64,000 bases of DNA from Polytrichum commune (Eukaryota > Streptophyta > Polytrichopsida > Polytrichales > Polytrichaceae), in contig OX485806.1 of NCBI GenBank assembly GCA_950295325.1, forward strand, positions 41,294,001 to 41,358,000, in the 5' to 3' direction. This document shows, piece by piece, positions 1,834-30,900 of the stretch. Under the pieces are notes generated by a model. That model saw only the letters and a list, made by a program, of their open reading frames with translations. It was not told the origin of the DNA and did no database searches. Each line of letters starts with the position of its first letter. The first letter of the stretch is position 1. Made by a program: the position numbers and the translations under genes.

Positions 1834-3463
1834 CACGTCTGAAGTATAATCTAGTATTTATCAACCTAACATGACTTTTAGGTGTCCAAATGGCCAATAT
1901 TATTTTGTGAGGATCCCACTCTCTCAAAATATTGAATAGGGGCCATTCACGGTTGGGGTGCTACTTTTGGCCGTCTAACGGAAAACGGACTTTTTTGGAT
2001 AACTTCACATGCTTGGTATGCTTAGATTTGTATTGTGAAGCTTAGATACTTGTGAAAGTAGGCATCGTTATTAAAATATTATAAAATATACATACTAAAT
2101 CAGCACACTAAATTTAAGTGTCATTTTAGAATGACAAAGAGAATTTCAAATGGTAAGTCAAAAAAATTATAACCTCAATGTTCATGAGGATTTTGTAATT
2201 TTATTTGACATCCAAATTAATTACGTGCTTCATTGATGGTTTCATTTCCGGAATGAAATCCCAATGAATTGCTTATTTACTAATTGGAAGTGCACATATA
2301 TATTGGATTTTAGACCTTGACGGCGAAGTGCACTCAATATGGGATTTGTAGTCAAGCGGGCTTCCCCATAAAGAAGGATGAAGTTTTCAGTGTCATCCGC
2401 GAGGCCTTCATCCCCCGAAGGTACGAGTGTACCTGCTGGTTCACCCTAGCCGGGGGTTACTTACCTTGTTCTTTTGTAACCACGTGCGTTTACTAGGTAA
2501 TTTCCTTGGAGTTGTTTACCTAGTACCCTTCAAGTAGAAGAAAAGAAACTACTTTGCCTTAGTATTCAGAACCTTATAGGTAGTTCTAAATGGAAATCCT
2601 CCATAATTTTAGAGATGCTAATTTACTTATAAACTTTTGAATTACCATGAAACTTGTTCTATTACAACCTCAGCATAGGCTCTTGGTGTACTAATTGGAC
2701 AACACCATTCAACACATAGAAAGCAAACTTAACAACAAAGACATCAAAGCTTTATTTATTCACAACAAAAAGAGCAAAAACAATAATGAGGGCAAGGGAA
2801 TTTTCAACATTGACATGTGAATCACTACAAACATAAGAACATGCCATAGCCAAAACAACATTGGTAGTGTTTACAAACACTATAACAATTACAAAATGAG
2901 TGTTTACAAACACTGGGCTATAGTGCGAAACTCAATCCTATAATTCAAAGATGTGCCAATTCAAGCTCATCACGATGCAACATTGCGCTCCAGCCAATAT
3001 GATCCTCAAGCAAAATCTTTGGAGTTAAAACTTGAATCCTGTTACTGTTGCTACTAACTGGTGCTACCGTGGCCAATGCTCTTCATACTGCCGCTTGAAT
3101 CTAGCCCATGGATCGGCAAATGGAACAATTTGTGACAAACACTAGCACATTATGGAGCTCCTTAGAACCATCTCAATCTCTACAATACGGACAATATACA
3201 TACAATAACCGGCCAAAGAAAATGAACAAAGATGAAGGAGCTAGAAATGCAAGGCAAACTAAGAGAAGTGAGGGAAACACCGGATGGGAAGAGGGGTTTT
3301 CATGGGGCCAAGGAGATACCTTTGATGCCTTCAACAATGAAAAAGGAGCATGATGATTGGGATGAATGGGGCTACAACCCAATAATTGCATAGTGTACAC
3401 GCCTTGGATGATCTTTGGGGGTCAAATCTGTGCAAGGAAAATGATCACACACATGAAAGCTTA
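1834..3463. other. Gene-less region, probably including the 3' non-coding part of the old transposon copy
   Basis: No supported gene. Immediately left of 3464 this should be the 3' flank of the decayed transposon whose stop codon is at 3464-3466; GTTTACAAACAC occurs near 2870 and 2902 and also near 4799 in the 3' flank of the intact copy. I could not locate the left terminus of the old copy. An 81-codon plus-strand frame at 3108-3353 has no recognisable domain and is not called. Confidence 0.4.
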
Positions 3464-3642
3464 TCAAGTCCTAGTACTAAAAAATTCATTTAACGTTGTT
3501 GCATCCACATGATCCAAAGTATATATTTTGGACATAGAATTATAGGACACAATTATAGTCCATATGATTGTATCAACATCGATCCATTTGCAATCGGCAT
3601 GATCGTACTTAAATTTCATTTGGTCCGGCTGTTTTCTAAACC
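3464..3642 (-). pseudogene. 3'-terminal fragment of the old transposase-like gene
   Basis: Minus-strand translation gives KYDHADCKWIDVDTII and, further on, IYTLDHVDATTLNEFF followed by a TGA at 3464-3466. This matches the C terminus of the intact protein (KYDVTDTQWIDIESVI ... VYTLKETDRQVLDEFV and stop) at the same spacing. The fragment continues on the far side of the inserted elements at about 12587. Joining the two sides with one copy of each target duplication gives an open frame (MVFMQWFRKQPDQMKFKYD) aligned with IMLNWFKSAPGRNKYKYD of the intact protein. Confidence 0.9.
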
Positions 3643-4142
3643 CACGGGTAGATCACTCTAAGGCATTTTTGTGCACTGCGTGCGGCTGGGGATTTTTTGT
3701 TTTGGGGTTATTTTTTACCTTCAAGGGCTGAATTAAAGCCTCCCTATAATTACTTAAATTTCAAAAACGGCCCATTTTTTTGCACCCTTCCATTACTTAT
3801 GTTGTCCAAGTCATTGTAATTTTTTGTACTCTATATTCCTTTTAATCCATTTTTGGACAGACGGAAATCCCAATTATCATCCATCCGCATGAGTCCTAAA
3901 CCCATTTACATACCATACTAAACATACCTTCTAGGATCCTTATTTTCAACCCCTATATTTATTTTACAAAAAATAATGGCCCACGTTTTATGTCCATCTA
4001 ACTTACTTATAATGGGATTGTCTACATTTAATGGCCCCTTCATTATTTGGAATTCCTTTATAATTTTTATTTCAAATGATTTTAATCCTCTCTATATTAT
4101 GCCGCACGTCGTTTTTAAAATGCACTAAGTGATCTACCCGTG
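3643..4142. mobile_element. hAT-like MITE (500 bp, 8-bp target duplication TCTAAACC)
   Basis: The ends are inverted: the left reads CACGGGTAGATCACTCTAAG and the right, inward, reads CACGGGTAGATCACTTAGTG. Both are followed by a second similar block (GCACTGCGTGCGGC against ATGCCGCACGTCG on the right). The 8-base sequence TCTAAACC lies immediately outside each end (3635-3642 and 4143-4150). An 8-bp duplication with short TIRs is typical of hAT-derived MITEs. No coding capacity. It sits just 13 bases from the start of the intact novel transposon, inside the same old pseudogene. Confidence 0.85.
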
Positions 4143-4155
4143 TCTAAACCATTGC

Positions 4156-4171
4156 CTCGGGGGGGGGCAGT
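4156..4171 (+). repeat. Left terminal inverted repeat of the novel transposon
   Basis: CTC, nine G and CAGT; this pairs with 12564-12578, which has eight C. Directly outside is target duplication ACCATTGC (4148-4155). Confidence 0.85.
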
Positions 4172-4520
4172 GTGTTAGAAATTTAAGGATATAGGTGCGA
4201 ACAACCACCATTTTATAGGGGGGTATTACTTTTTTTTTTTTTTTTCCACGGGCTATCATTATATAATTATATAATTTGGCTTATTATTACAGGGGCTTGC
4301 ATTACTTATAATTCCAAATTGATATGAATAAACGATATGGTAATTTAGATTTAAAAAAAATTTCTACTACAGTTTTTGTCCTACATCAAATTATGAACAC
4401 ATACATGAAATCAAACAATGTAGGTTAAAGTGTAAATGATATAAAAGAGCAATTTGTATAGATCACATAAAAACTATACAAACCTTTAGTATGAAATCAT
4501 TCATATTATGAAACACAATA

Positions 4521-4744
4521 GAGTTATCCTAAAAGTCAAGTGGCCTTTGAACAAATAAGAGTCATTAAATCAAAACACATGGCATCTTGTTCAAATGCCA
4601 CTTGACTTTTAAAATAACTCCAATGAGGGACCACCAAGCTCTTTCAAACTTCATAACTATTTACAATGAACAAATAAGAGTACATTAAATCAAAACACAT
4701 GATATCTTGTTCAAACGCCATTTGACTTTTAGGATAACTCCAAT
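4521..4744. repeat. Hairpin plus direct duplication in the 3' flank of the intact transposon
   Basis: 4521-4553 and 4588-4620 are inverted copies (30 of 33 bases: GAGTTATCCTAAAAGTCAAG...). The right part, about 76 bases from 4549 to 4624, is repeated directly at 4668-4744. This lies between the stop codon of the large gene and the left terminus, a usual place for subterminal transposase-binding repeats, but no such role is demonstrated. Confidence 0.7.
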
Positions 4745-4890
4745 TTACAATGTATTTGTGCACAATCATAGTAGTATGAAATAAATGTTCTCATTGTGTT
4801 TACAAACACAATGAATGAAACTAAATGTGCATATCATGGAGACACTGACAAATAAAGATAAAACCGTAGCTACTTGAATAACCTGCAATG

Positions 4891-7800
4891 CTAAGTAGTT
4901 TTTGACACAAATTCATCTAGCACCTGCCGATCAGTTTCTTTTAGGGTGTAAACGTTGCTATTAGATTTGAATGACAATGCAATGATGCAAATCACGCTTT
5001 CAATGTCAATCCATTGGGTGTCAGTCACATCGTACTTGTATTTGTTCCTCCCCGGTGCTGATTTGAACCAATTCAACATTATTTGAATGGACGGTGAAGA
5101 ACTTCCCTTCTTACCTACTGAGGTGTGAGCCATAAGGTTGACAGGGTTTCTACACAATCTCCACGTTTTTCCAACCGTCCTTCGCATTTTTTGGACTCGG
5201 CCCAGCCACCAAGTGCCAATGTTCGGGCCAACGGTCACAGCAGTTGGGTGTCCCACATGAGCACTGGTGCGGTTCCTCTTCTGTGCTGCTCTCACTCCAG
5301 AACTTTGGCCCAGAGTTCGTGATTGCATGAACATCACAGCGCAGTCACTTCCAAGTCCAAGGAAAGCGGTTGATGTTGAATTTGCAGCTGAAAGGTAATC
5401 CTCTGCGTTATTGAAATAAATAGAGTTCTTGATGCGAGTCAAGCGGTCCTTTGATAAGAAAGGATTCCCATTCAATTCACCTACTAACGTTGATTTGTAA
5501 ATGGCCCTGCCCTTGTACTCCACCACCGGCTCTATTTTCTGTACAAGGTTCTGCCCAGTTGGAGGCATTGGTGGGCTCGGCTCAGCTGAATCTAGCATTT
5601 GCGAGATTGCATCCCTGCATTCCTCCTCAGCAAGTCTTAAAATTTCTTCCCTATCATCCAAAGAATCGTCCACAATACTCATATCCACGTCAATGTCCAC
5701 AACACTCTTATCCGGGTCTACATTGGCGCCGTCACCATCCACGGTCTCTTCTTCCATTGGCAAAATTTTGGAGTCCCTCATGGCCTCACCATCGCCATCT
5801 TCGCCGGGGACAGGTTTTTCGGGAGCCACATATGCCCAGTGCTTTGGATCCGCCCTCTCGACCGTCCAAGGCTGCAAGAACCACTGTTTATTTCTAGCAT
5901 AAGAGGATGGAGCCATATTTAGCACCTTCAATTGGGTTTGGGCTGCCTTTAGACCTTCCTTCAACGCTGATACGAAGTCCTCATCTGTGGCAAGGGCGCT
6001 GTAATCTCCCAAATCTGCAGGGGACTGTCCCCGTTCTAAAGGATGCAAGTCAGCCCAGATGTTACGCTGCTTGTTATGCGCTCTACCAAATTGCAATCCA
6101 TTGGGTCCATATTCAATCGCAGCAAGCTGGTTCACTGTGTTAGCACAACCCACAAGCTCTTGGAAATCGTAAGCTCTCTCCATACCCTGCATCCCTCCCA
6201 CCTTGCTAAAAAAAATTTCACACGAATAAGATCCTGTGAGGTGCAGTGGAACTGGCAAGTGAGAGAATCCATCACGAAAATACCTTACCAGTAAGACCAC
6301 AAAATGGCAAGACAACTGCACATCAAGATAGCATTGGTTGCTCACAAAGCATTCTTGTAGCGTGGGCTTCTTTGTATTTCCTCCTACACCGTGGTCACCA
6401 TGGTCGAACCACAACCTCCATATTCTAAAAAAGAATGACACTTTGCTAGCAAGAACCACCCTCTCCCTCAAAGTCAAAGACACGGAAAGGAAAATGTCGA
6501 TATAATCAGCACATATAGACAAGTACAGCTCAGTCCCCAAAGTTCTTTCCTGATGTGCGTCCTTACAAGTTCTAAGTTCCTGCAAGCAAGTCTTTGCCTT
6601 CTTTGCACAAATGCGTTGTGCACTAGCCCAATTTTGTCTGTCTGTTCGGTCCACATCTTCTTTTCTAAGACCATGCTGATCAATACCAAACTTTTGATAA
6701 ACTTGACCAAGATGATCTAGGTAACAGACATCAGCCCCTAGTTGAAGGTTCTTTACAGCACTGTCAAGTGGGTTGATCAATTTTTTTCCGTTATGGATGA
6801 AATCCTGATCATGCAAGCCTTTAATTTTATTCTCCCCAAGCCACTCACAAGATAAAGACCAGCCTTCCCATGGAATTTCATACCTGAATCCTACCTTGCT
6901 GCAGTAGTCTTCAACCATCAATTGCCTTCTCCTAGAGTCGCCATCTGAAGAATGCCCTATAATAGGTCCAACAACCGGCCCACAACTATATTGCCAAAGG
7001 GTGTCAATACTCTCCCACTGACTTCTCACCCAACTCGAATTAAATCGATTGCAAGTGCATGACACAACAAGGACAAGTCTGGGCAACTTATCATGCAACG
7101 GATTGACCATGATGACACGAGCAAAACTTCCTTTGACATTCATTCGAAAAGAATCAACTATGGATGAATATCCACTCTCACCATTCCCTACTTGCGGTTT
7201 GAAAGTAGAGATGCACACATGATTCTCCTTTTCTCCACAAAAGCCTACCAATCCATCTGACCGAGCGTCCCAAGAAATACGGGACTTAACTTTCGTCTCG
7301 TCTTCAGCTAAGATGACTGGGACTGGTCCTACCACTCCGTGACTTGCTTTGGCCTCCTTGTAAATGTCAGCCACAACAGCAAACAACGAAGAATGTTCCT
7401 TGGCAATGAACTGAACTCTTTTTTTGTTTTCCCTCTTGGTACAATCATATGACGGTCCACCAAAATTCAAAGCAAACAAATCACACATTCGCCTCCCACC
7501 ATAGATCCTCATAGCTTGTGCAAATGATTTTGAATTTTTTGAGAATGTATGACCCTGCCTCACACGATTCAAGTTTGTGGCAACATCCCTAAGGAAGTCC
7601 CACAAAGCTGGCTTTCCGCCAAAGGCGTTGGTTCTGTGAGCCGCCAAAATGTTGTTACAAAAAGAGAGAACATCCTTTCTATTAAAGCTTTCTACGGCAC
7701 TAAGTTTCAGACCACGGTGACTTACTTTCAATTGCGCGACCCTAGCCTTCATGAGCCAATGCTTAGCCTTTTCCTCACGATATTTCCTCGCTAATGTCCT

Positions 7801-9432
7801 AGACTGTGCGGCCACCTCAATACATTGCAAGTAGTCTATCCTTCTTCCAGACTGTGTATCCTTGCAACCGCGCTTAACAAGAGCACGACCTTCCCTAAGC
7901 ACTCTAAGTCTGAAATCAGTGGCCTGCTCAATTTCTATGCAACAAGAACAAGTGAAATCCGTGAAAGGTTCTCCTGTGCCATTCAAACGTTTACATTGTA
8001 CATGACGGAAGCAACCTTTCACAACGACAATCTTGCCTTTGAATACAAAATTTGCAGTTGTGTTGGGCTCCGCTATCCACAACGATCCAGGCTTTGAATC
8101 ATTGAGCAATGAATCCATTCTATAGCACTTCCCAGCGTACTCAATGATTTTCTTCCTAAATCCCCAACACAACAATGACAAGATAGAGTCTGAGTGCATA
8201 CCTGATGGAGATTCGCTTGTAGTTACGGAATCTGTACTGCCCGAACTGCTGAACCAAGAATGCAGGTCCCGTTGATTTCCAATTGTTGTTCTCGACCTTG
8301 CACTAGGTCTCCCTCGCTTCCCGGAGCTCAATGCACATGATGTCTTTGAAGAACTGTTTGCCCTTACCAAATCTTCACAACACTTGGTATGAAGGAGCCC
8401 ATGGACATGATTCTCTAAATTAGCTCTGAGATTTCCCTTTTGCGGGCACAAGTGCATTAGTTCTCCGTCGATTTTGCAACGCACCTTGAACCAAAAGGAC
8501 TTGAACTGAGGAACCCCCACATCTCCCACTATTACAAATGGAGGATCATCTTCCGAGATGGAATCATTCACACTTTGAAGAATGCTGACACCTTCCTCCA
8601 CGAGACGCTTGTGATCGGCTGGTGTCAAAATTATGGGTTTGCTAGAGTTGCCCTCCTTCTTCGGGTGATCGTTGTACAAGATATTCCTCTTCCTACACCA
8701 CTGCTTGATGTGAAGAGTGGAATGCAAGTGAGACTTTTTGAAATTCGCAAACAAGTTTTGTATGGCAATCCGGGAGTGATCACGACCTGTACCCCCGATT
8801 TCTCTCTTGCACTCCCCACAAAATATTTTCACAACTGCCACGTCATGGTGATCGTATGTTTTGAGGTTCCACACGTGATCAGCGAAATCCATGGACTCCA
8901 ACTCCCTTCTAAGCTTCTCAGCACCCCGCTTGTAATTCTCAAGCACGTCAACAGATAAGAGTGTCGATTGCAGCAAAGTCTCTTCCTCTTCATGAACTTC
9001 AATCAGATCTGCCTCTTCCAACGTCGGGGCAACACCGCAGAGCAAGATGTCCGCAGCACACGGTTGGACAACTTCATCAACTCTAATTTCTACTTGGGGC
9101 TCCCCTGCAAAGTCATTGCTCCCCGCTTCACCCGGCGCTTGAAGACGACACCGCTTCTGAAGTCCACCTTCGTCCTCCAATAAAGGAATGACATAGACAC
9201 GGTCTGTCACAGGATTCATGGCCTCAAACCTCTTGAGGATTCGACATTCATCTTGGAAGTCCCAAAAAAGGAAAGGCCACTCCACGCATCCACCATTCTC
9301 CAAGCGCGTGCGCAAATAAGCATAAGTGTCGCCCGTTTGGCAAAAGAAGGGGCTCAATAGCTCCGGCCGCGAAACATCATCTTCAACCGAGTACAACCTA
9401 ATCTTGAAATTCAGCGCCATCTTCCACACCAA
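4891..9432 (-). CDS. Putative DDE/RNase H-like transposase of the novel family (1513 aa)
   Basis: One uninterrupted minus-strand frame of 1513 residues fills the centre of the intact element. Visible parts, in order: a conserved N-terminal block around residues 48-72 (CVEWPFLFWDFQDECRI); a first Cys/His segment at 205-246 (FCGEC ... H ... H ... WC); a second at 319-352 (RCKIDGELMHLCP ... NHVHGLLHTKCC); an AT-hook-like GKRGRP at 371-376; and a third Cys-rich segment at 473-499. A core follows with EDETKVKSRISWD (710-722), GHSSDGDSRRR (826-836), HDQDFIHNGKK (874-884) and GSYSCEIFFSKVGG (1067-1080). The order and spacing of these acidic motifs resemble P-element/THAP9-like RNase H-fold transposases, but that is inference and no catalytic set is proved. 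Two start Met codons lie 4 residues apart; the first is chosen. A decayed paralogue exists in the window. An alternative is a domesticated nuclear protein, but the TIRs and fresh target duplication argue for a live transposon. Confidence 0.8.
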   Translation of the reverse strand: MVWKMALNFKIRLYSVEDDVSRPELLSPFFCQTGDTYAYLRTRLENGGCVEWPFLFWDFQDECRILKRFEAMNPVTDRVYVIPLLEDEGGLQKRCRLQAPGEAGSNDFAGEPQVEIRVDEVVQPCAADILLCGVAPTLEEADLIEVHEEEETLLQSTLLSVDVLENYKRGAEKLRRELESMDFADHVWNLKTYDHHDVAVVKIFCGECKREIGGTGRDHSRIAIQNLFANFKKSHLHSTLHIKQWCRKRNILYNDHPKKEGNSSKPIILTPADHKRLVEEGVSILQSVNDSISEDDPPFVIVGDVGVPQFKSFWFKVRCKIDGELMHLCPQKGNLRANLENHVHGLLHTKCCEDLVRANSSSKTSCALSSGKRGRPSARSRTTIGNQRDLHSWFSSSGSTDSVTTSESPSGMHSDSILSLLCWGFRKKIIEYAGKCYRMDSLLNDSKPGSLWIAEPNTTANFVFKGKIVVVKGCFRHVQCKRLNGTGEPFTDFTCSCCIEIEQATDFRLRVLREGRALVKRGCKDTQSGRRIDYLQCIEVAAQSRTLARKYREEKAKHWLMKARVAQLKVSHRGLKLSAVESFNRKDVLSFCNNILAAHRTNAFGGKPALWDFLRDVATNLNRVRQGHTFSKNSKSFAQAMRIYGGRRMCDLFALNFGGPSYDCTKRENKKRVQFIAKEHSSLFAVVADIYKEAKASHGVVGPVPVILAEDETKVKSRISWDARSDGLVGFCGEKENHVCISTFKPQVGNGESGYSSIVDSFRMNVKGSFARVIMVNPLHDKLPRLVLVVSCTCNRFNSSWVRSQWESIDTLWQYSCGPVVGPIIGHSSDGDSRRRQLMVEDYCSKVGFRYEIPWEGWSLSCEWLGENKIKGLHDQDFIHNGKKLINPLDSAVKNLQLGADVCYLDHLGQVYQKFGIDQHGLRKEDVDRTDRQNWASAQRICAKKAKTCLQELRTCKDAHQERTLGTELYLSICADYIDIFLSVSLTLRERVVLASKVSFFFRIWRLWFDHGDHGVGGNTKKPTLQECFVSNQCYLDVQLSCHFVVLLVRYFRDGFSHLPVPLHLTGSYSCEIFFSKVGGMQGMERAYDFQELVGCANTVNQLAAIEYGPNGLQFGRAHNKQRNIWADLHPLERGQSPADLGDYSALATDEDFVSALKEGLKAAQTQLKVLNMAPSSYARNKQWFLQPWTVERADPKHWAYVAPEKPVPGEDGDGEAMRDSKILPMEEETVDGDGANVDPDKSVVDIDVDMSIVDDSLDDREEILRLAEEECRDAISQMLDSAEPSPPMPPTGQNLVQKIEPVVEYKGRAIYKSTLVGELNGNPFLSKDRLTRIKNSIYFNNAEDYLSAANSTSTAFLGLGSDCAVMFMQSRTLGQSSGVRAAQKRNRTSAHVGHPTAVTVGPNIGTWWLGRVQKMRRTVGKTWRLCRNPVNLMAHTSVGKKGSSSPSIQIMLNWFKSAPGRNKYKYDVTDTQWIDIESVICIIALSFKSNSNVYTLKETDRQVLDEFVSKTT

Positions 9433-10456
9433 CCAAAACCAGAGCTGCTAGTGCACTTGAGCTGCGGCTGGGATGATTGAATTTTCCCTCTTATGATTCG
9501 ACTTGCTCAATCATTCCACCTCTCTCTCGCATCCAATCAATCAAAGAGAAAATAAGTACCTAGAAAAATGAATGTCGCATTGCAAAACGAATGGATTCTT
9601 CAATGGCAGCCTCGCCTTAGCTCAAAGTTGAGGAAGCTAGATCACCACACCGGCAGCCAAGACCTGCATGGAAAATGCATCCATATTCTCATGAGCTCAG
9701 ATAGAACCCCTCCATCAGCATCCAGGGTAATCTTATTGCCAATTTACTTTAAAAAACACTCATAGGTACCAAATTTACCATTACACACCTATTAGCCTCC
9801 ACCAACAGGTATTATCAAGAAAATGTAATGCCCCTTGGTAACTCATGTACCCCTACATACTTGTGTTCCAAATCCCAAAGGTGCCCATCAGTACACAACA
9901 TGGCACAAGACATGCAATTACATTCTGCCCACCCTCTTCCTAAACAGTCAGTATCTGCGATTCCAATCCTTAGATTTCTCTAGATTCCTGATTCCTCTTT
10001 TGCACAAAATTCGCTGAAGAGAATCACAATCAGCCAGACATATCTCGATTATGTCTTAGTGGATAACATGCCAGACATAAATATGGATTATGCTTAATAT
10101 TCCAAGGTGGAAACCCTTTCTGCTTCGAGCCTCAATATTTCGGGGGCCCCAGAGCTCATATTTGATTACCTAAACTGAGGACCATGGTTTCACTGGTCGT
10201 CTTTCCAGATTCTTTGTGGCAACAAAAACCTCTCACTCAAATAATCAAGTGATCAACAGCTCACAGCTCAGCCTCTCTTGAGGCCCAGCCGATTCTTACT
10301 GATCACCATAAATATCCGTGATAACCAAACTCTATCACCACATGCAAAACTATCCCACAAGATTTTCTGAATGCCATTGCAGGGTACCAGATTAGCCCCT
10401 ACTTCTTCATGCAACCACTCACTCCACTAACACATACAATGATCGGGGAGAACTGG

Positions 10457-10665
10457 CACTTAGTTACAGATGAACCAGTTGAGTTTGAGAAATAACTGGT
10501 CGAAGTTCAAGACTGCAAGAAAACTACCGATCATTTTAGAGGAATTTATGGAATACACCGCAATTGTATAAAGGAAAACCGGAGGATGCCAACATGTAAC
10601 CGGTTGGACTTGCAAACACTCGGATCTCAACCGATTATGCCCAACAATCTCCCCGATCACTGAAC
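10457..10665 (+). repeat. Dispersed repeat, copy 1
   Basis: About 200 bases resemble 33170-33365 in the same orientation. Shared blocks include TTGAGTTTGA(G/A)AAATAA, GCCGATCATTTTAGAGGAAT (ACCG here), TGTA(A/G)CCGGTTGGA and CAACCGATT(A/T)TGCCCAA. No coding content. The two copies sit inside unrelated transposons, so this is an independent repeat family. Confidence 0.65.
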
Positions 10666-11535
10666 ACATACTAACAAATAACTCGACTGTTTCTCCCAAG
10701 CGGATTTTCTTGAACTTTTGATCAAGTTCAACTGGCGCTCCCTACACTGCAGTGTCTATTAATATCCGTCGTCAATGCTGCCATTGACGAGTTGTCGTGA
10801 ATGACCAGCGCAATGTAGACTCTGTGCACAAGATATAAGCTCAATGTGTAGCAACATCAAGGGTTGAAACAGAGGTGCATTGAAACATTACGTACATGGA
10901 AAGTGAGAGTGTAGCTGCAGCTGCAGCCTTCCAACTCGTGCACTGTTGAACAACGAGAGTAGGTGGCAAGGACAATCAAGAAGAGCCCCTTTGATTTGGC
11001 TCTTTCTGTCACTTTCTCACGAGAGAGGATTGATTTCGATTTGGAAGCAGGACACTGAAAGCGCAACTAACAAGGAAGAAGATACCAATACAGAGAAGGA
11101 AGTATGTACGTCGATATTCATAGCTGCAATTAGTGGACCAGGTAGCTTCACTTTCAGGATTGCCACGATCTAAAGGACTGTAATGAAAAACAAGCGGAGC
11201 TTTCAGGAATACCAGAATTGCTGCTGAAGCTTAAGTAACCAGGCCCTCTCATCAGAAGTATCATATTCCTCCTGTGTTGGCTTTCAAGTTCTCGGAGACT
11301 ACTTTCTTTCCTGGTGATAAATCAGTTCTGGTGCTTTCTAAATACAGGGAGCAGCTATTAGAAAATCGCTCTTCACAATATTCCAAGAAGAAGGTTGTAG
11401 TAAAGCTCAGACTGTGAGGTTTCTGAGAGCTGGCGTATTATAATTTAAGGCCCAGATCAAATGCAATGCTGAAGTCAAAAAGAAGTCCAACAATTATTGG
11501 AGGTGAGGATAGATCAAGAGGCTGGGGAAACTTAC

Positions 11536-12239
11536 AGTACAATACTCTGCCCGCATCCTTCTCACTAATGACATCGATTTTGTCGACCCCAAGCTTGACA
11601 CTGTCACCCGATGGTGAGCTTCAGAAAATTTTGATCATCACATCAATTCACCTTCGGATAAAAACCAGCGACCAAGTCCCAAAGGTTGAAGTCGTGATGA
11701 TCTCCACCGCCAACTCCTCTCTCCATACAAAAAATGAAAAATGAAAATTTTAAACTCACAAGAAAGACTCAAAATACTAAATCTACGGAGCCGATGCAGT
11801 AAGATCGCATATCCAACACTGGCAAGAAGACAATACATCTACGGTACCTTACAGACAACCATCTCTACAGGCTCTCTCTCTCTCTAACCACACAGTGTGC
11901 ATTCCTTTAAACCTCACACAAGCATATTGTCGGTGGGAACACGCGGGTCTGCCAAGCCATCGAATCCTAAAATCCAGAAATTGAGGTGGCTAGGGATGCG
12001 GAGACTTACGATGTTGCGAGGAAGGTTGGCGGTGTGTGTGGCGAGGCAGCAGTAATTGGGGTGCAATCCGAGGGAGTGCAGCTGGAGCATCCAGAGAGAG
12101 GGAAGCGCGGGCAAAGGGCGAACGAGGGAGGCAGAGAGAGAGGGAGAGAAAGAGAGAGACAGAGAGCCAGCGCAGGGGGGTTGATGCCTGAGAGGCACAA
12201 GGCAAGGGGAGGGGAGGGGAAGCCATTTTTTCCGACCAT
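11536..12239 (-). other. Two exon-like segments of unknown origin in the transposon 5' region
   Basis: A GC-rich segment 12010-12239 opens with an ATG (MVGKNGFPSPPLALCL...) and is Ser/Leu/Pro-rich, like an organelle-targeting leader. It ends at a consensus GTAAGT donor. A second segment, 11536-11618, is bounded by TTTTCTGAAG acceptor-like and GTAAGT donor sequence and continues the frame as SPSGDSVKLGVDKIDVISEK. I do not recognise the protein. No third exon is convincing. It may be a captured host gene fragment or the untranslated 5' exons of the large transposon gene; splice signals alone do not separate the two. Confidence 0.3.
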
Positions 12240-12563
12240 TAAACTAATTGTGCATGAGTTTGAAGACAGCCAAGCTCTTACACACCTAATAATGAGAGGC
12301 CACTAAGCTCTTCTATATTTTAGGATAACTCACAATGTAGCATTTTCATACTTTTGGTCAAAAATAATAATATAAAGGGGGGTATTTTAGAACTACTTCA
12401 TTTTCTAATGGGACCTATTATTCCATACCCTATAGTACTTTAAAGATGTCTAGTGTCATTTTTGATACCCTATATTACTCTAAGTTCATTTATAATTTTT
12501 AGCTCCCATGTTTTTAAAATACCCTATCATTTGTTCGCACGTAGGTAGCTACTCCAACCATTG

Positions 12564-12578
12564 ACTGCCCCCCCCGAG
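12564..12578 (-). repeat. Right terminal inverted repeat of the novel transposon
   Basis: Read inward on the minus strand: CTC, eight G and CAGT. It is followed outside by target duplication ACCATTGC (12579-12586). Confidence 0.85.
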
Positions 12579-12586
12579 ACCATTGC

Positions 12587-15103
12587 ATGAAAACCATTAA
12601 ATTAAGGGTGGATGGATTTTTCTTTCCCAAATTCACTTGAAAATTTTGTAGGTCGATAGGTTGCCAAGACAATCCCCATTTTGTGCCCACTTTTTGTCTT
12701 ATTTTATGCACCCATCTCAACCTCCAACATCCTTCATTGACCTCATTGAGAACGCAACTGGGTGTAGGACTCTGACATGGTCAGCCCCTCTTCCTCTTTG
12801 CAGCAGCTTTGACAGTCGATGAACTGCCCGTGTACTTCACTGCAAAAAATAGACTCCTACATCTGACCCAAGCCCAAAAACATAGTGGAGGTGAAAGCTG
12901 CAACCTTAATGTATATGTCATTATTGTTAAAATAGTATTGAATTTATGACCTTATAAAGTTTGTCTTTTGACAAGAAGGGGTTGCCATTTAACTGAGAAA
13001 CCAAAGTGGACTTTGTAGATTTGGTGACCCTCATGCTCTACATATGCAAAAAATTTACATTCACAGAATATGGTTGGGGTGCGAGGTTACTTTCTTAACA
13101 GCTCAACAAATCCGACAAGGCATCACGGATTTTGTTTTCAAGCAAAGGAAGCATGTCAGAATTATCATCATCAACTATCTCATCTTCTAGCAATGCATAT
13201 CCATTGGGAATGACACTATCATCAAGAAGTTCAACCGAGATTTCAACACTTGTCTAAATAAGTGTCTCTCGCAACACCTCACCATCACCGTCCTCACCAG
13301 GCACTAGGTGTTTTCCGAAAAAAAATTCCATATGCTTGGGATTTAAATTCTCCAGCAACTATGGAGTAATAAACCAAGCCTTTGTGGATGACGGGGCCAT
13401 GTCTAAAATATGGCTTCTTTAAGGCCCTCTTTAAGGGCCAAAACCACATCTTTGTTAGTGGAAATGAAACTATAGTCTGCAAGATCACATTGAAATTCTG
13501 AATTTGCATCTGGGTGTAGGGATTCCCATACATTTGGCATCTTATAGTGAACATGTCCAAATTTCAAACCACCTTAATGTTACCCTATACCTATTAACCG
13601 ATTTACATGTTGGCCGTGTTCACAAGCTCATGAAAGTCATAAGCCCATTCAAGTCCAACCATCCCACCGATCTTAGAGAAGAATATCTCACAAGCATCAC
13701 TCCCTATCAAATGCAAAGGAATAGGCAAATGCGAGTATCAAGACTTGGAGTGACAAATTAACATCACAACAAAGTGGCATGATAATTGAACATCCACAAA
13801 ACATTGTTAGCTAACAAAATTCTCAGAGAGAGTGAGCTTGCTGGTGTTACCATCCACCGCATGGTTACCATATCTAAACCACAAGTGTCGGAGCCGAAAG
13901 AAAAAGGAAACCTTAGATTCAAGGATTATTTTCTCTCTCAAGGAATGTCTAGGTGACAAGAATATATCTATGTAGTTGCCACACACCTGCACATACATCT
14001 TAGTCCCAAGGGTGGACTCCTAGTGAACTTTTGCGCTAAACATGACCAGATCTTCTCATGACAAATTCATTGTGCTAACGCCCAATTTTGCCAGTCGGAT
14101 CTCTAGACATCCTCAAGCTTCAGGCCATGTTGTTTGTAAGTGTACTTGTTGTAAACAAAACCAAGGTGCTCTAGGGCGCACATGTTGCCTCCCAATTGCA
14201 ATACACGCACTGGTGAGTCAAGTGGATTTACAAGTTTTTTTCCTGTTGTGAATGAAATCTTGATCGTGAAGCCCAAACGCGTCTCTAAGGTCATCTATGC
14301 TAGCAGATAGAGCCACCCTATCCACTCAATCTTCAACCTGAGCCCTTGACTTGATTGATAATCCTCCAACATCGGGTGCCTCCTCTTACTGTCACCGTCA
14401 GTAGAATGCCGTACGATTGGGCCAACAATTTGCCAACACTCCTGCTCCCAGATGCTCCTACACTTGGTTGATCACATGGCACTGCTTTCTCACCCAACAA
14501 TAGTCAAAAACATTTCACGTACAACAAAGGACCAACACAAAGAGTGGCGGATTGGCGTGTAGAGGGTTCACCACAATAACCCTGGCAAAATTGCCAATTT
14601 TGTCAGAATGAAAACTCTCCAAAATTTTATTGTATCCCAACACACCTGAACCCACATCTGGTTTGTAGTTAGTAACACAAAAATGATCATGAGTCACCCC
14701 ACAAAAACTAGCAAGTGTATCAATTCTCTACTCATATGCAACCCTTGACTTAATTTTGGTTCATCCTCCACAAGAATGACCGGGACAAGATCGTCAATAC
14801 CATACCTATCTTTTGCATCCGTGTAAATGTTGGCCACAAAAGCAAAGATCGATGCATGCTTGCCATGTACAAAATGCACACCTTTCTTATTATTTCTCTT
14901 CACTTGACTATAACTTGGACCATTATAGTTCAAGTGAAGTAAATCGCACATGCACCTGCCCCCATACATTTCTAAGGCCTGGGCAAATGACTTTGAATTT
15001 TTAAAGAAAATCAAAACCCTTTCTTTTTATGATTTAATTTGTAGCCACGCCATGCAGAAAGTCCCATAATGTTGGTTGTCCTCCAAATGCACTTGATCTC
15101 TAA
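12587..15103 (-). pseudogene. Central and 3' part of the old transposase-like gene
   Basis: Minus-strand fragments match the intact protein in order: SAFGGQPTLWDFLHGVATN, then SKSFAQALEMYGGRCMCDL, PVILVEDEPKLS, GKKLVNPLDSPVRVLQLGG and KHGLKLEDV-like text, LNGNPFLSKDKL and WVHKIRQKVGTKWGLSWQPI. Several stops and frame changes occur. The ED of the first acidic motif is kept (VEDEPK), but the following SRISWD is lost. The left edge is cut by the intact element (12578) and the right edge by the Harbinger element (15104). Confidence 0.9.
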
Positions 15104-16585: not shown

Positions 16586-17894
16586 TTGAGGTACATCACA
16601 ATGTCGGATCGTTGGAGAAGGTACAACCAAGACATTCAGGCTAATCTAGAGGATGATGAAGGAGAGGAGTTCGTTATGAGAACGCTAGCCCAACAATATG
16701 ACAATGTTTCCAGCGACGATGAACCAAGGCAGCGGGGTGGTAGTCGTCCAGGGAGGAGGGCGAACAAAGAGCGTTTAGCCGAGATGTACGATGCCTTGCT
16801 CTTCAAAGACTATTTCTCGGACGACCCCATATTTGATGACACTGATTTCAGACGCGTTTATCGCATGAGGAAACCTCTTTTTCTCCGTATATTGCATGCA
16901 ATCACAGAGTCTGACGATTATTTCGTTCAAAAAAGGAACGCTGCAGGAAAGCTGGGGTTAAGCAGTCTTCAAAAGGCCACGGCTGCGATGCGTATGCTAG
17001 CGTACGGGACCTCATCAAAGGCACAAGAAGAATACACTAGGATGGCTGAAAGCACTGCTCAAGAGGCGATGTTGCGGTGGTGCAGGGGGTTAGGCGATGT
17101 TTTACAGAGTACTATTTGCGGGATCCTCACAAGATGATATTGTGAAACAAATGGAGATAAATCAGGAGCGGGGGTGGCCAGGTATGTTTGGTTCCATAGA
17201 TTGCATGCATTGGAAATGGAAGTTGTGTCCAATTGCATTGCAGTGGGCATTTCAAGATAAAGATAAAAACAGGAGTATAATTCTCGAAGCAGTGTGCGAT
17301 CAAAGTTTATGGGTTTGGCATGCATTTTTCGGCCTCCCGGGTGGCAACAACGACTTAAATGTGCTGGATCGCAGTCCACTGGTACGCAAGTTGGTTCATG
17401 GCGCTGCTAGTAGTGTTGGATTTAGGGTCAATGGGAACTGGTATGAAAAGTGCTACCTGCTCGCCGATGGCATTTACCCTAAGTGGAGTTGCTTCGTCCA
17501 ATCCCTACAGGACCCCGAGGACCAAAAAGAAAGTAACTTCTCAGGAGCTCAAGAATTTGCGCGCAAGGATGTAGAACGTTGTTTCGGAGTGATGCAAGCT
17601 AGGTGGAGCATTATCACACAACCGTGCAAGTTGTGGAATACATCAGACATTTCGGATGTTATGTATGCTTGCATTATAATGCATAATATGATTATAGAGG
17701 ATGAGAGTGGTAGAGACTTGGAAATTCTAACACCAGGAGTTGCATCTTCATCATCATCGGGGATGAGACGAGGTTTCACCTTCGCCGATTTGACACGAGA
17801 AACTGCACTCATTGAGGACACTGATACTTACTACAACTTGCGTGACGACCTTGTACAACACCTATGGGAGCATAAAGGGGACAATGCATATTAG
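16586..17894 (+). pseudogene. PIF/Harbinger DDE transposase, broken by two frameshifts
   Basis: The N-terminal part (16586 to about 17105) reads MSDRWRRYNQDIQANLEDDE... from the second Met and contains the usual FRRVYRMRKPLFLRI helix region. The C-terminal part runs from about 17135 to the stop at 17894. Between them the family motif EYYLRDPHK is found in the third frame, so two indels lie between 17100 and 17145. The catalytic DDE residues are all present in the C-terminal frame counted from 17097: GSIDCMHW (D35), NNDLNVLD (D86) and RKDVERCFG (E160). Apart from the damage, total length fits the family. It cannot be translated as one protein unless the indels are sequencing errors. Confidence 0.92.
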
Positions 17895-21469: not shown

Positions 21470-22978
21470 TTATAACACTCTTGCACCAAGTTGCCAAGGC
21501 GATGGAGCTGCCCAAGGGATGTTTTGGTAATGACTACCGATGGGTGGAGGGATTGGCATCGAGGGAGGAATAGTAGGGAAACAATTTCTGGTGGCATATT
21601 CGGAAGCCAGGGTCTCATTCCAGAGGACCTGCTTCGAGGCCTCCCTAAACTGAACTTCGCCGTTAGGGTACTTGCCAGTGCGGCGACGTTGCGAAGGGGG
21701 AACCCTACACATCTCTTCCCCTTCCGTATCAGAAACGACATGTATGTCACTTCGATCCTCTGCGGAGACATCGAAGTGACCACCTAAACTATCATAACTA
21801 CGCTGATGTGCCCTAGCTTTCAATTGTGCACTCTGCATGTAGAGGCTGGGCTCAGAGTTGCGGTAGCGATTCCGATGGGCTGCCTCGCTATCGGAGTCCT
21901 CTTGGTCTTCATCGTCATCACCTTCCAATCCCACAGTGGCCCCTACATTGAGATCTGGCTGCAATGGGGGTGAAGGAGAAAGGGGAGTCGAGGAGGGAGC
22001 GAAAAGATCTGTGGGTGCGGCAGCGCATCCGGGGATGGTGCCTGTGTGCACTCGCACACCCGCATTCGGCGCAACAACATCGCCTGCATTCGATGAGTCT
22101 TCCTCGGCTGCCATCTCCTTCTCAAGCCGTTTGAGCTCTTGCTGGCGGCGGAGAAGGAGCCATCTACGGGCTACTTGGCACGTGATAAGGGAATCCTCCA
22201 GCGTGAAGAGGCTGAAGGCATTTTGCTGGGCGATCTGCTCAGCCTTCTTCAAAGTTGCTTGAGCGAAATCGGCTGTTGCCCTCGCATTCGCCCTCAAGGC
22301 TGCGTCCTTCTCCCTCATATCCTTGTGTTCAGACTTTGCTGACTTCACTCCTTGTGGCCTGTGCAGGTTCACGTTGGCGTCGACTCCTTCACGTGGCTGC
22401 TCATTAGGAGAGTTAGCCTCCCTCCTGTCAACCGGCAGATCACAACCATGAGTGCCTGGAGCCTTGCGCTTCGACCCTGAAGCCCTGAAGATGGCAGCAA
22501 ATCGCGGGTGATCTCGGAGCAGCAACCAACAATGTTTGTGGGCGAATGGCCTCCCCACCTTCTGCTCAAAAAGCTGCAATGCATCAAGGATGATGTCGTC
22601 CTCTATTCGCCCGCTCTCGTCGAGGGATTTGATCTGCTCATAGCAGCCCACGAACTTGGCGATGCTCGCCTTCAGATCTCCCCACTTCGTCTCAAGACTC
22701 CTCGCAGGTCGCTCCGGACATGCTGCAGGTTTGTTTCTTGCATAATGCGAAGCAACAGCAATCCAGAACGCAGCTTTTTTCTGCCCGATCCCCCGCCGCG
22801 CATCTGTTGAGACATACATAAAACTCTTGCATGTTTGCTCTTCCTCCTTGGGCATGAAATTCTTCCCCTTCCGCTTCGCCCCACCCGCGATGACGTCAGC
22901 AGTGGTACACCCTGACATACCTATTTCCGACGATATTCTTGGGTAGCGGACCTCTTCTCGGCACGCCAAGCAAGGCAA
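21470..22978 (-). CDS. MYB/SANT-like partner protein of the Harbinger element (502 aa)
   Basis: The open frame is uninterrupted. Residues ~43-165 form a trihelix/MYB-like DNA-binding domain (EEEQTCKSFMYVSTDARRG, then FWIAVASHY, then W...I.KFVGCYEQI, then HKHCWLLLRDHPRFAAIF). A basic linker and a coiled-coil, Ala/Lys-rich stretch follow (about 220-310; NAM-associated C-terminal-like), then an acidic Ser-rich tail. PIF/Harbinger elements need such a protein for nuclear import of the transposase and binding of the ends. It is transcribed opposite to the transposase, at the other end of the element. A Met at residue 21 is an alternative start. Unlike the transposase it carries no lesion. Confidence 0.85.
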   Translation of the reverse strand: MPCLACREEVRYPRISSEIGMSGCTTADVIAGGAKRKGKNFMPKEEEQTCKSFMYVSTDARRGIGQKKAAFWIAVASHYARNKPAACPERPARSLETKWGDLKASIAKFVGCYEQIKSLDESGRIEDDIILDALQLFEQKVGRPFAHKHCWLLLRDHPRFAAIFRASGSKRKAPGTHGCDLPVDRREANSPNEQPREGVDANVNLHRPQGVKSAKSEHKDMREKDAALRANARATADFAQATLKKAEQIAQQNAFSLFTLEDSLITCQVARRWLLLRRQQELKRLEKEMAAEEDSSNAGDVVAPNAGVRVHTGTIPGCAAAPTDLFAPSSTPLSPSPPLQPDLNVGATVGLEGDDDEDQEDSDSEAAHRNRYRNSEPSLYMQSAQLKARAHQRSYDSLGGHFDVSAEDRSDIHVVSDTEGEEMCRVPPSQRRRTGKYPNGEVQFREASKQVLWNETLASEYATRNCFPTIPPSMPIPPPIGSHYQNIPWAAPSPWQLGARVL

Positions 22979-23127
22979 AAATGGCGGAAAACGTCTTCAA
23001 TTATGCCCGCCCGCTCTCCTCTTATGGCGTTGGCGGGCCTTCCTGGGGATCCATTTTTTTTGCACCCGGCACCTACAATACCGGAATGCCGTTTTATTCC
23101 AGGTTGGCGAGGCTGCTGGGGACGCTC

Positions 23128-24850
23128 TAAGAGTTTAGTATGTTTGAGTAGAAGTTAACTAGATTATGCTTGCCAAATGCCATCTTGGCCAACTCTCTTA
23201 AAGTTGGCTTTTAAACTTTTGTTTGAACAAGCCTAAAATTAGTTTACTAATGCAACATTTTCTCCAATTTCACTCTTTTCTTGATTACTCTTTTATAGGA
23301 TGATAATTCAAGTTGTGACAAATAACCTATTTGAATTCCTCCCTTAGTAATCTTGCCTCATTTTTCCATGGCGTGATCTTCTCGAACAACTCTCATTCGA
23401 AAATCTGGTTCTAAAGGGATCATAATATAATTGATACAAGTCAAATATACCCATGGCTCACACATAAGACTTGCACAAAGACAATTCCGGTGTATAAAAA
23501 TATCATTTACCTTCATGCAATTCCCATCAATAACGATACTAGCTTGCAAGTGTGGTTTAATAAACCATGCTTGACTAAGTGAGGATCGTTTAGCATTAAC
23601 TCTACAATATATGACTTACTTGCATATGAATTAGTTGGACCTCTAAACCCCCAATACATGAAAGGAAGAAAAACAAGCATGTCCATGCACTGGAAATCAC
23701 TTGCTTCGTTGTTGTCTGTTGTGTGTCATAACCAAGAATGTATGTCTCTTTGGTTGGATAACTCGCTAGCTCCTGTAGAGCGGTTGGGTCTCCCCCTTCT
23801 GCTAGTTGCAAGCGCTACGATGGAGCCTTCCCCGTTGTCGGCATCTTGGACGGCCTTCTCGTGTTTGGTCCCTCCCAGGTGATTGTTCAAATTCGCCAAC
23901 AAGTTTTTTTTGGCAGACATAGTTGAAAGCAATTAGCACAATATATGCACTTCAATTTGAACCAAAAGCATTGAACATCCTCAACATCCAAATCACCAAC
24001 AAGCAAAAATAACTATTGATTGCTAGCAACACCTTCATTTATTGTCTCCATAATTATGATTCTCTCATGAATCAACTGTTTGTGATCTCTTGCCGTCAAT
24101 ATCATAGCCTTCCCCCTTGTTGCGGATTGACGGTGATGACACCAATCCACACCTTTCCATTGACACCAATTGCAGATGTGTTGGACGCTCATAATGCAAA
24201 TTTGAAAACAAGTTTGTGACCTTATCCTTTGAATGTTCTCCACTCTTACCTCCAAAATCTTTTGAGCGTTTTGAGCAATGTAGAACAACCACATATTTGT
24301 CATCTTGATCCCACAACTTCAGTTTCCATTCGTGATCCTCCAAGGAAATCAACTCAAGTTCCTCTGAGTTTTTCTTCTCCATAGCCTCTTTTGGGATGAA
24401 CATCGATTTCAAAAGTATCGAGTCATTTCTTAAACCTCTCACTTCTGAGCTAGACGTTGGATTCACAAGATTGGCTTGCAACTCAATGGCGTCATCGGCC
24501 CCAAACCCGTGATTCGACTCCACCTACGACATTTATGTGCTTGAATTGTAGATGTGTTCATCGTCCCTACCATGGCGACGTTTTGGCAAATTTTCTTCCC
24601 ATTCTGCTTCAAGAATGAGGTGCACGTTGGCAAGAACCATATTCAATCCCTCGAACTTCACTCCAATCTTGCACCCCTCCTCAAGGTCCCAAAAATGAAA
24701 AGACCAAGGGACCACTTAGAATTGCTCTAGCCTCACTCTTAGATCTGCCTAGCTCTCTCCCTCCTTAGCAATCATTGGACTAATCCTTATGGGCGCAACC
24801 CCCCTCCGCATTCAAACTGTAAATCAAAATTTGTATAGGCCAGCGCATGT
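23128..24850 (-). pseudogene. N-terminal part of the old transposase-like gene
   Basis: Minus-strand fragments match the intact protein in order: WSFHFWDLEEGCKI (like WPFLFWDFQDECRI); EDHEWKLKLWDQDDKYVV (DHVWNLKTYDHHDVAV), with SKDFGGKSGEHSKDK near it; LANLNNHLGGTKHEK; GRPNRSTGASELSNQRDIHSW (GRP...IGNQRDLHSW); LEPDFRMRVVREDHA (ATDFRLRVLREGRA); and NFYSNILNS up to the Harbinger insertion. The first Cys/His segment has lost residues. Start codon and frame are not recoverable. Confidence 0.88.
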
Positions 24851-27986: not shown

Positions 27987-30900
27987 CTAAGTTTCAGCAT
28001 CGTCGCGTAAGCTTAGGCAGTGTAGATCTGGTCTTCCCTCAGCCATGGAGGTCACTCTCACACTTCGTGCCTCTTTGCGTAGAACAACCTTCCACCCAGG
28101 ATGTGCCACATCGTCAACAAAGAAAACCTGTTGAGCATGAAGAGGAAACGCAAACGAATCTGATGAGTACAGAATGGTACGGTCAATGTTCACGAGAGTG
28201 AAACCGTACTCATCTCTCTTCATAGTTGCCCGTGGCCCAATCCACGTAGCTTGGACCCACTTACAATACAGTAGGAGTAACTCGAACTTCCCATAGTCAG
28301 CACCAATAATCTCTTCGACCCACCCCACGTACTCCACGTTCGCGAGCCTGTGATTCTTGTCCTTTCTGCTGGCTCGGCAAGATTGTGAGAATGTTGCAGC
28401 TACTCCGCTGTCGCACGTTGACAAGTCTACCTCTGCTCCGCGCACACGTATATGGTTCCCATATGCATACATGCTGCGATACGATTTTGCCTCACATGAA
28501 GGTGGTAGGACAAGGCCAATAACATCTTCATGGACCTGTGTGCCTGCTACCACATCCCGTTGCACTGAAGCAGGAAACCACACAGAAAACTGCTCATTCC
28601 TTGCGATTGGTGGATACTCTGCTCTTCTACCCGTGATCGACGGCGTATCTCTGCACGCATTTTGTGCCGCGCTTCCATCTCCAAGTAGTGACGTCTGATT
28701 AGAAGCCACAGTGGATGAAAAGTTTTTACATAACAAAAACAGCCGGCAGATAGCGGAAACGTCATCTACAAAACATTCTCTAGTCATGTGTTGCAATATG
28801 ATGACTAGAATTAGTACGCAATAGACCTTTGGTGACTACACACAGTCACATTGTCCCTTCTAGACAGAGCGCATGACTAAAACAAGTTATGTTTACTCTC
28901 TGTATGACTGTAGAGGCTCCGCGTTCGTGAAAACAAACTCGTGAATCCGTGCCCTGAGCTCTGATGTCAAGAGTCGATATCGACCTGTACCCTCTACAAC
29001 CTCACTCTTGGCCCCTATTTCCTCCTGATCGTCCCAGGTCCTCCTGCGTGTTAGCTCATAGTCTTGCATGTACTCTGTGCAAAATCCTAACGCCTCCTCT
29101 ATTGTGTACCCCCTCGCCATGGATCCCTCGGGTTTTGCTCGTTGCCTAACATAGCCCTTCAGTCTCTTCAAGTATCGCTCAATAGGATACATCCATCGGG
29201 TGTGTACGGGACCACATATATCCAATTGCTGCACCAGGTGAATGGGGAGGTGTGACATGACATCAAAGAATGAAGGTGGAAAAACCTTCTCTAGCATGCA
29301 TAGTGTCTCAGCTGTGTACTCCAATAACTGTTCCATGGATGAGGGATCTACGGACTTTGCGCACAATCGTACAAACACCCGACTAAGCCGCATTATTGTC
29401 ACCCGCGTATCCCTATCCAAGAGAGTGCGCAAACACAAGGGGAGCAACTGTTGCATCAAGACATGGTAGTCATGAGATTTCAGCCCCTTCAAGTCCCCAT
29501 CCGACGCAATGCACTTTGCAAGTTGGCCAGCGTAATTTGTAGGAGTCTTCAAATTGCGGATAATGTCTATGAATTTTGCCTTCTCCTCTTTCGATAGTAC
29601 ATATGGAGTTGTTGGAAGTACGACATGCCCAGGTTTCCTTCCAGGAAGCGGGTGCAGATGTGGTCGAATATTGCTCTCTTTTAAGTCTAGCTTGGCCTTC
29701 AAAGTGTCACGGACTCCCCAAATTGTTTTCATCACGTTCTCGCAGATGTTTTTTTCACAGTGCATGGAATCCAAAACATATCTAATGAGGAGGTCCTGCC
29801 AAAAATCCCAGCAAAGCATTCCAGCGTTAGATTTGCTCACTTTTGACAAAGAATCTTAAGCATTCATTGAAAAGATATAGGTTCATATTCATTTTCCTCC
29901 CTACATGCAGTGATGGATTTTAGAAATTGCACTATTCACAGTCAACCTTCTTACCAAGCAAGTTACTAGATTCAGTCAACAATTCTAAAAGTAGTTACTG
30001 GAATCAGTGAATGCGCTTAGTACCTGCCAATACGGAAGCAGGTACAGAGCTGAGAGCCGCTTCACTCCGGTCCGGTGAATGGGGTCGCCTTCTCCTCCAC
30101 CTCTTCTTCCCTGTGACTCCTGCAGGAAGGACACTCTCTCTTGTGCATAGCCCTTGATGTCGCATCCTGTTAGAATTGGAGGGGGCGGCCGGTACTCTTG
30201 TTGACCATCGAATGTTTGCTTGAGCCTACGATAGTGATGCCATCTACTGAGATACCGGCGGTGACCTAAATATACATTCTTTCCTAGAGCCTTTGACCGC
30301 CGAGTTGTAACATCTAGCCCACACTCCGTACACGCTATATACCCTTTTGTGATTTGGCCAGATGTGAGTCCGTATGCAGGGAAGTCGTGAATGCACCAAA
30401 GAAGTAGAGCCCATAGTCTAAAATGTTGTCTAGGGGGCTCTTCATCAACATCTATCACTGGTACCCCTTTCCAGAGTTCCAAGAGTTCTTCAATCAGTGG
30501 AGTAAGGTACACATCGATGTTCTCCGAGGTCACGCTCTTGCGACCTGGAATCAACAATGCAAACATGATGAAAAATGGTTTCGTCACTAGCCATGCAGGC
30601 AAATTATAGTTCACTAGGAGAACCGGCCATGTCGAGTGACCGAGCGACTGGTTTCCGAACGGATTCATTCCGTCCAGAGCCATCCCCAAGCGTATGTTCC
30701 TGTGCTCAGCTGTAAAGTTGGCATCCAATGAGTCAATGTGCTTCCAGGCCTTCGACTCGGGGACGCAATCCACGTTACTCCCCTCCTTCTGATTGGCGTG
30801 CCATTTGTTAAGTTCCGCCAGTCTTTTACACCGGTACATGCGCTTCAGACGGGGAATCAACGGAAAATGGTGTAGATTTTTCGGATGGGATTGGGCTGGA

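Follow-up and report, generated by a model that had tools for sequence, protein, structure and literature searches.

The element and its gene

We analyzed a 64,000-nucleotide stretch of DNA from Polytrichum commune, bases 41,294,001 to 41,358,000 of contig C4 (OX485806.1) in a genome assembly of 407.8 Mb in 64 contigs; this whole stretch is referred to as the window. At positions 4156-12578 it carries an element of 8,423 bp with its one gene on the minus strand. Very likely this is a complete DNA transposon of the cut-and-paste type, with a P element-like (P/THAP9-type) DDE transposase as its gene product. The ends and the flanking duplication were read directly. The left terminal inverted repeat, CTC-G(9)-CAGT, lies at 4156-4171 on the plus strand, and the right one, ACTG-C(8)-GAG (reverse complement CTC-G(8)-CAGT), at 12564-12578 on the minus strand, and both were also recovered in genome-wide searches. 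Directly outside them are two identical copies of the 8-bp target site duplication ACCATTGC, at 4148-4155 and 12579-12586. An original prediction made from the sequence had proposed inverted ends with 8 or 9 G residues and a perfect 8-bp duplication, and both were found exactly. It had also proposed one uninterrupted gene of 1,513 codons; the gene is uninterrupted, but its length was revised to 1,509 codons from the first ATG (4894-9420, minus strand, stop codon at 4891-4893) within an open frame of 1,518 codons. A noncoding leader at 9421-12240 separates the gene from the right subterminal region, and its sole ATG-started frame of at least 80 codons is an unsupported one of 92 codons on the plus strand (11466-11741). 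A perfect 14-bp subterminal inverted repeat is present at 4521-4534 and 12318-12331.

Inspection by eye of the N terminus of the transposase found CxxC...HxxxxxH patterns that resemble BED/C2H2-type fingers, although they had no profile support and the second CxxC was incomplete in the window protein. The C-terminal region (window 4894-6078, with ...WWLGRVQKM... and ...KYKYDVTDTQWIDIESV...) was kept in all six aligned full-length proteins; by eye it resembles a chromatin-reader-type domain, and no profile matched it.

The element interrupts a decayed gene belonging to a distant relative, which is 37 to 43% identical over its longest core piece, as compared against six queries. Protein matches located this gene on the minus strand in three parts: the N-terminal half, in pieces, at 23130-24799; the core to near the C terminus, also in pieces and abutted by the intact element, at 12580-15099; and the C-terminal end, beyond the insertions, at 3467-3642 (match within 3640-3467). 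A second insertion, a separate miniature of another kind, is located at 3643-4142; it is 500 bp long, its ends CACGGGTAGATCACT are perfect, and it is flanked by an 8-bp duplication of its own, TCTAAACC. When the two insertions were removed, each together with one of its duplication copies, and the flanks joined, the protein of another family locus (L007) matched across the junction without gaps over 116 residues, 45 of which were identical (39%; E 5e-31). This restored match independently supports the exact borders of the element. The predicted second, decayed copy was present as a gene of a distant subfamily, but the second copy of the terminus that had been ascribed to it was not confirmed in a search of the window. 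Beyond the element's own ends, C-H-C-GGGG or CCCCG-D-G was found at four places (17513, 25586, 30756, and 40186), of which only 25586 is at a position compatible with an end of the old copy, and a looser search gave 21 matches compared to 23.4 expected by chance. As to the 500-bp miniature, its ends also start with C-H-CGGG, and in the joined empty site its duplication and that of the main element have 3 bp in common.

Copies, miniatures, and subfamilies in the genome

The genome was searched with each end of the element. The right end (23 bases, at most 1 mismatch) gave 1,508 matches and the left end (21 bases, at most 2 mismatches, fixed spacing) gave 270, and the reversed control of each gave none. 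These results bear out the prediction of a mobile family. Its proposal of recent movement also held: a copy of 8,426 bp at another site (L001), with a different duplication, differed from the window copy at only 37 of 8,420 aligned bases (99.56% identical). Among the 31 protein matches scored in the genome, out of 1,987 candidates, nine had uninterrupted frames of more than 1,400 residues, and four of these nine, including the window's own, were 99 to 100% identical to the window protein. Tabulation of the flanking 8-mers, which the original prediction had put forward as a check, gave exact and mutually different 8-bp duplications at six of the seven large elements read at both ends (ACCATTGC in the window, GAAATCAC, CCTTAAAC, CTTCTTTC, ACCCCGCT, and CTCAAGAG). 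The best right-end matches included eight long right ends, seven of which belong to these large elements; that at C5:20568805 was read at its right end only. Two of the large elements have ends separated by 22 and 44 kb, and other DNA therefore lies in between.

Most of the end matches are probably miniatures, since left- and right-end pairs abutted among the 40 left-end and 40 right-end hits that were scored. In such pairs, for example, C6:19192114-19192275 with 19192276-19192442 and C1:24945039-24945207 with 24944872-24945038, approximately 165 bp of the left end joins approximately 166 bp of the right end. We examined 20 miniatures, rows 9 to 28 among the best right-end matches and thus not a random sample. 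They were 335 to 350 bp long (approximately 340 bp) and had their ends in common with the window element. Their 8-bp duplications were exact in 19 cases and had one mismatch in the remaining case; the left boundary was picked among four offsets, by which all 20 could be parsed, compared to 1 of 20 in an earlier automatic parse. As a control, none of 380 mismatched pairings agreed with at most one mismatch, these pairings reusing the chosen 8-mers with their offsets as already set. The structure of the miniatures suggests that all of the sequence required in cis lies within approximately 165 bp of each end, and the 14-bp subterminal repeat would therefore be dispensable. In none of 26 duplications did the 8-bp target begin with T, and in three it ended with A, hinting at a symmetric target preference.

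The proteins of the relatives in this genome span about 33% to 99% identity, and at least four subfamilies could be distinguished. Compared to the window protein, subfamily X is about 48% identical, subfamily Y 50 to 53%, and subfamily Z 33 to 34% (core). Ends were read for all of them: CCCGGGGTGGCAAC with duplications CTCAGCTC and GTAACGAG for the two Z loci (L042 and L043), CCCGGGGG... and CACGGGGGG... with duplications GGGATGGC and ATTTCAAC for the two Y loci (L040 and L048), and CTCGGGGGGAGCAC and CCCGGGGGGAGCAC for the X loci (L006 and L039), where 7 of 8 flanking bases match. The frame of L042 is open over 1,150 codons from its ATG, and that of L043 has one stop. Termini of the form C-H-CGGGG and 8-bp duplications are thus common to the four subfamilies whose ends were read. 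In the six between-subfamily pairs, synonymous differences were saturated (0.81 to 0.85) but nonsynonymous differences were 0.16 to 0.36; therefore, the protein has been under constraint.

Predicted fold and proposed catalytic residues of the transposase

The arrangement of motifs in the transposase was recognized as P/THAP9-like before the first fold search result was obtained. A first model of the core, built from 17 sequences, was poor (predicted local distance difference test [pLDDT] score of 48.7), and the P element transposase already ranked first (Z 18.7 versus 10.4). A usable model was obtained when uninterrupted segments of decayed relatives were added, giving 55 rows, all from this one genome. 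These rows were chosen by eye from 99 segments, with those omitted often being 60 to 97 residues long, and the segment listing skipped nine loci that were near-duplicates or pieces already in use. The resulting AlphaFold2 model of residues 540 to 1115 (6076-7803, minus strand; core residue n is protein residue 539+n) was of fair quality, with a pLDDT score of 78.7 and a predicted template modeling score of 0.72. In a Foldseek search of the PDB, the only matches at or below 0.001 were 6p5a (E 1.1e-11) and 6pe2 (E 1.5e-11), both P element transposase. When Foldseek's top 1,000 chains were realigned with VIA, P transposase scored Z 29.2, with a root mean square deviation of 4.5 over 411 aligned residues (model 62-567 on 131-569 of a 442-residue chain), compared to 11.8 for Transib, up to 10.4 for RAG1, and 8.9 for Hermes. 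The fly enzyme is described as having a helix-turn-helix region, an RNase H fold, and an insertion domain (PMC7776569; here and for the other papers cited, statements refer to the accessible part of the text), and by our reading of the residue numbers the aligned range would cover all three in the predicted core.

The signature of the P superfamily comprises a D in beta-1, a D in beta-4, a [C/D](2)H right after beta-5, and an E in alpha-4 (PMC8230255). Candidates for each were found in the model. The proposed first catalytic D, D707 (codon 7300-7302, minus strand; ...ILAEDETKV...), lies in strand 163-171, corresponding to beta-1; the proposed second, D826 (6943-6945; ...GHSSDGDSRRR...), is beside strand 281-286 at the end of beta-4; the D(2)H motif, D873-x-x-H876 (6793-6804), comes after model strands 319-323 and 326-328, directly after beta-5; and the proposed catalytic E, E1068 (6217-6219; ...SCEIFFSK...), is in helix 526-538, corresponding to alpha-4; all of these codons are on the minus strand. 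In an alignment of 17 rows (A3), D707, D826, and D873 were invariant and H876 nearly so, while E1068 was E in all 15 rows that reach its column, two rows stopping short. Spacings in the window protein are 119 residues from D707 to D826, 47 from D826 to D873, and 195 from D873 to E1068. The corresponding residues are D230, D303, D339(2)H, and E531 in fly P, with D414 and E613 reported for THAP9 (PMC8230255), and D327, D415, D449(2)H, and E642 in Galileo (PMC4168063). The D(2)H-to-E spacing of 195 thus compares to 192 in fly P, 199 in THAP9, and 193 in Galileo. D975, 102 residues past D873, is a candidate GTP (guanosine triphosphate)-related position only, fly D444 being 105 residues past D339; of the 15 rows of A3 that extend to its column, 14 have D or E and L049 has S.

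Taken together, fold prediction and residue signature group the transposase with the P element/THAP9 lineage, a known superfamily, and its core is very probably homologous to that of the P element. The original prediction had found no plant superfamily that it could name. This was correct for Pfam and NCBIfam profiles, none of which matched the window protein, but not in the sense of a family without known kin.

Classification and alternatives

We consider the family to be best read as a cut-and-paste lineage of P-like type, represented in this genome by at least four subfamilies and having a mechanism that is not new. Most likely, the enzyme attaches to the outermost 165 bp or so at each end through its zinc-finger-like and helix-turn-helix parts. 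Excision would be carried out by an active site of D707, D826, and E1068, located in an RNase H fold that is interrupted by a helical insertion domain, which would stand in place of the GTP-binding domain of the fly P element, and joining to target DNA with an 8-bp stagger would give rise to the 8-bp duplications. To judge from the shared ends, the internally deleted miniatures of approximately 340 bp would be moved in trans.

Features that the window element has in common with the Drosophila P transposase (6p5a and 6pe2) and THAP9 are the predicted helix-turn-helix, RNase H fold, and insertion domain, the order of the DDE residues, the D(2)H motif, and the 8-bp duplications, and the P element also has internally deleted derivatives (PMC7776569). 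Unlike the fly P element, which is 2.9 kb long (PMC7776569), the window element is 8.4 kb with one frame of 1,509 codons, and unlike both P and THAP9 it has an extra conserved C-terminal region. Galileo, a member of the P superfamily in Drosophila, shares the DDE residues and the D(2)H motif at nearly the same distance from the E, but differs in its THAP domain, its long inverted repeats, and its mostly 7-bp duplications (PMC4168063).

Several observations weigh against this placement or against parts of it. The window protein had no match in Pfam even at E 10 and only chance matches by sequence in the PDB, and 11 proteins of the group matched Pfam only at chance level (best E 0.038, thioredoxin). 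The Pfam P-transposase domain profiles did not match the group proteins; PF21787 likewise found nothing in this genome, yet 14 control genomes were equally silent. No Pfam THAP match was obtained in six full-length proteins at E values up to 10, although HMMER filters drop most matches above about E 0.1 and a strongly diverged THAP finger could escape; because no THAP match was found, we refer to the element as P-like rather than as a canonical P element. The termini of the group start with CTC, CCC, or CAC, compared to CATACC in the zebrafish termini and CATGATG in those of the fly. The first D-to-D spacing of 119 residues exceeds the 73 and 88 of fly P and Galileo, and beside D707 two rows of A3 (L047 and L050) have K for a flanking E. 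Residues 1 to 539 and 1116 to 1509 received no fold assignment, and the core model was built on relatives from a single genome. In subfamily X only 7 of 8 duplication bases matched, with one site read at both ends, and no recognizable 8-bp duplication was found at the ends of one decayed large element, L035. Finally, no short-range constraint was detectable between the window gene and that of L001, where 15 changes were nonsynonymous and 5 were synonymous (ratio 0.83). L035 itself belongs to the family as an older, rearranged member of 8 kb, with a 690-codon frame at 2720-4789 of that locus, which had no Pfam match at E 0.01.

Some of these differences could instead mean that the family is a separate superfamily, sister to P, which would share the P-type core fold by deep common descent but have an N terminus for DNA binding, a C-terminal domain, and rules of end recognition that are all its own. 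We regard this as possible but hold it only tentatively. The near silence of the profile searches (none for the window protein, E 0.038 at best in the group), the missing THAP match, and the differing termini fit such a rank, as do cores that are down to 33 to 34% identical among the subfamilies of one genome, suggesting an old radiation. Conversely, the fold match of the core was specific to P (Z 29.2 versus 11.8), the D(2)H signature is kept, and where a superfamily ends is a matter of convention; this alternative differs from the P-like lineage in rank and name, with the same mechanism. It is likewise possible, though less likely than not, that the family represents a superfamily-level branch within a plant lineage, sister to or deep within P, which would combine the P-type GTP-domain design with another zinc-finger-like DNA binding in place of the THAP finger and a gained, conserved C-terminal domain, and which would be active today and drive more than 1,000 miniatures.

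A divergent hAT element, with 8-bp duplications, a large transposase, and BED-type zinc fingers, is very improbable. The duplications, the N-terminal CxxC...HxxxxxH patterns seen by eye, and the presence of Hermes, which also has an RNase H fold with an insertion domain, among the fold matches are in keeping with it, but the match to Hermes was far weaker than that to P (Z 8.9 versus 29.2), and no Pfam hAT model matched the window protein, the dimerization domain included at E values up to 10. The second D and the E are 242 residues apart in the window protein, close to the 228 of P, compared to about 324 in Hermes. One protein named after a hAT region, from a Pandoravirus, was the only match at or below 0.001 in a viral fold library (E 3.9e-4, template modeling score 0.21), and we attribute it to the shared RNase H fold. 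By sequence, no relatives were found in viral contigs or in bacterial and archaeal genomes. We find an element of the Zisupton/KDZ type, a group with large transposases, equally hard to credit. Zisupton duplications are 8 bp (PMC12730594), and Zisupton and Kyakuja elements are present in relatives of Chlamydomonas (PMC8226300). The window protein, however, had no match in Pfam, which probably includes a KDZ transposase profile. We know of no solved KDZ structure. A MuDR/MULE element was rejected because target duplications in that group are about 9 bp, compared to the 8 bp seen here (6 large elements and 20 miniatures). About 9 bp is also the length given for Mu (PMC2774946).

Our literature search found no description of these termini or this protein, which is not proof of absence. 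Work on P-type transposases has dealt mainly with insects and vertebrates. A 2022 review of land plants tabulates six terminal-inverted-repeat superfamilies, with P not among them (PMC9033089, Table 1), and the accessible text of PMC7466625, PMC8226300, PMC2874221, PMC12550479, PMC12477816, and PMC7386202 makes no mention of P-type elements in plants. The case for novelty is weakened by a 2015 survey in which "P-element" appears among the superfamilies present in all groups studied, including land plants (PMC4438587, Table 2). The family constitutes an unassigned source of 8-bp miniatures. Such miniatures may be filed as hAT by pipelines, since one for plant miniatures sorts into five major superfamilies and one special group (PMC12550479). 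A plant lineage that has four subfamilies, numerous miniatures, and intact copies that moved recently would allow dating of the split RNase H/insertion-domain design, as well as tests of whether GTP use accompanies that design and of how DNA recognition is swapped.

Other features of the window and the assembly

Two further frames lie between the halves of the decayed P-like gene: one at 17094-17891 matching Pfam Plant_tran/DDE_Tnp_4 (Plant_tran E 4.7e-78), which we take to be Harbinger type, and a NAM-associated frame at 21473-22996. An open frame of 334 codons at 38812-39813 had no Pfam match at E 0.01, and pieces of a CACTA-type element are present at 27990-31013 (Transposase_21, DUF4218, and DUF4216 matches). 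Seven contigs of the genome are 42 to 78 Mb long, and repeats of TTTAGGG, the plant-type telomere repeat, are found at the start of contig C1.

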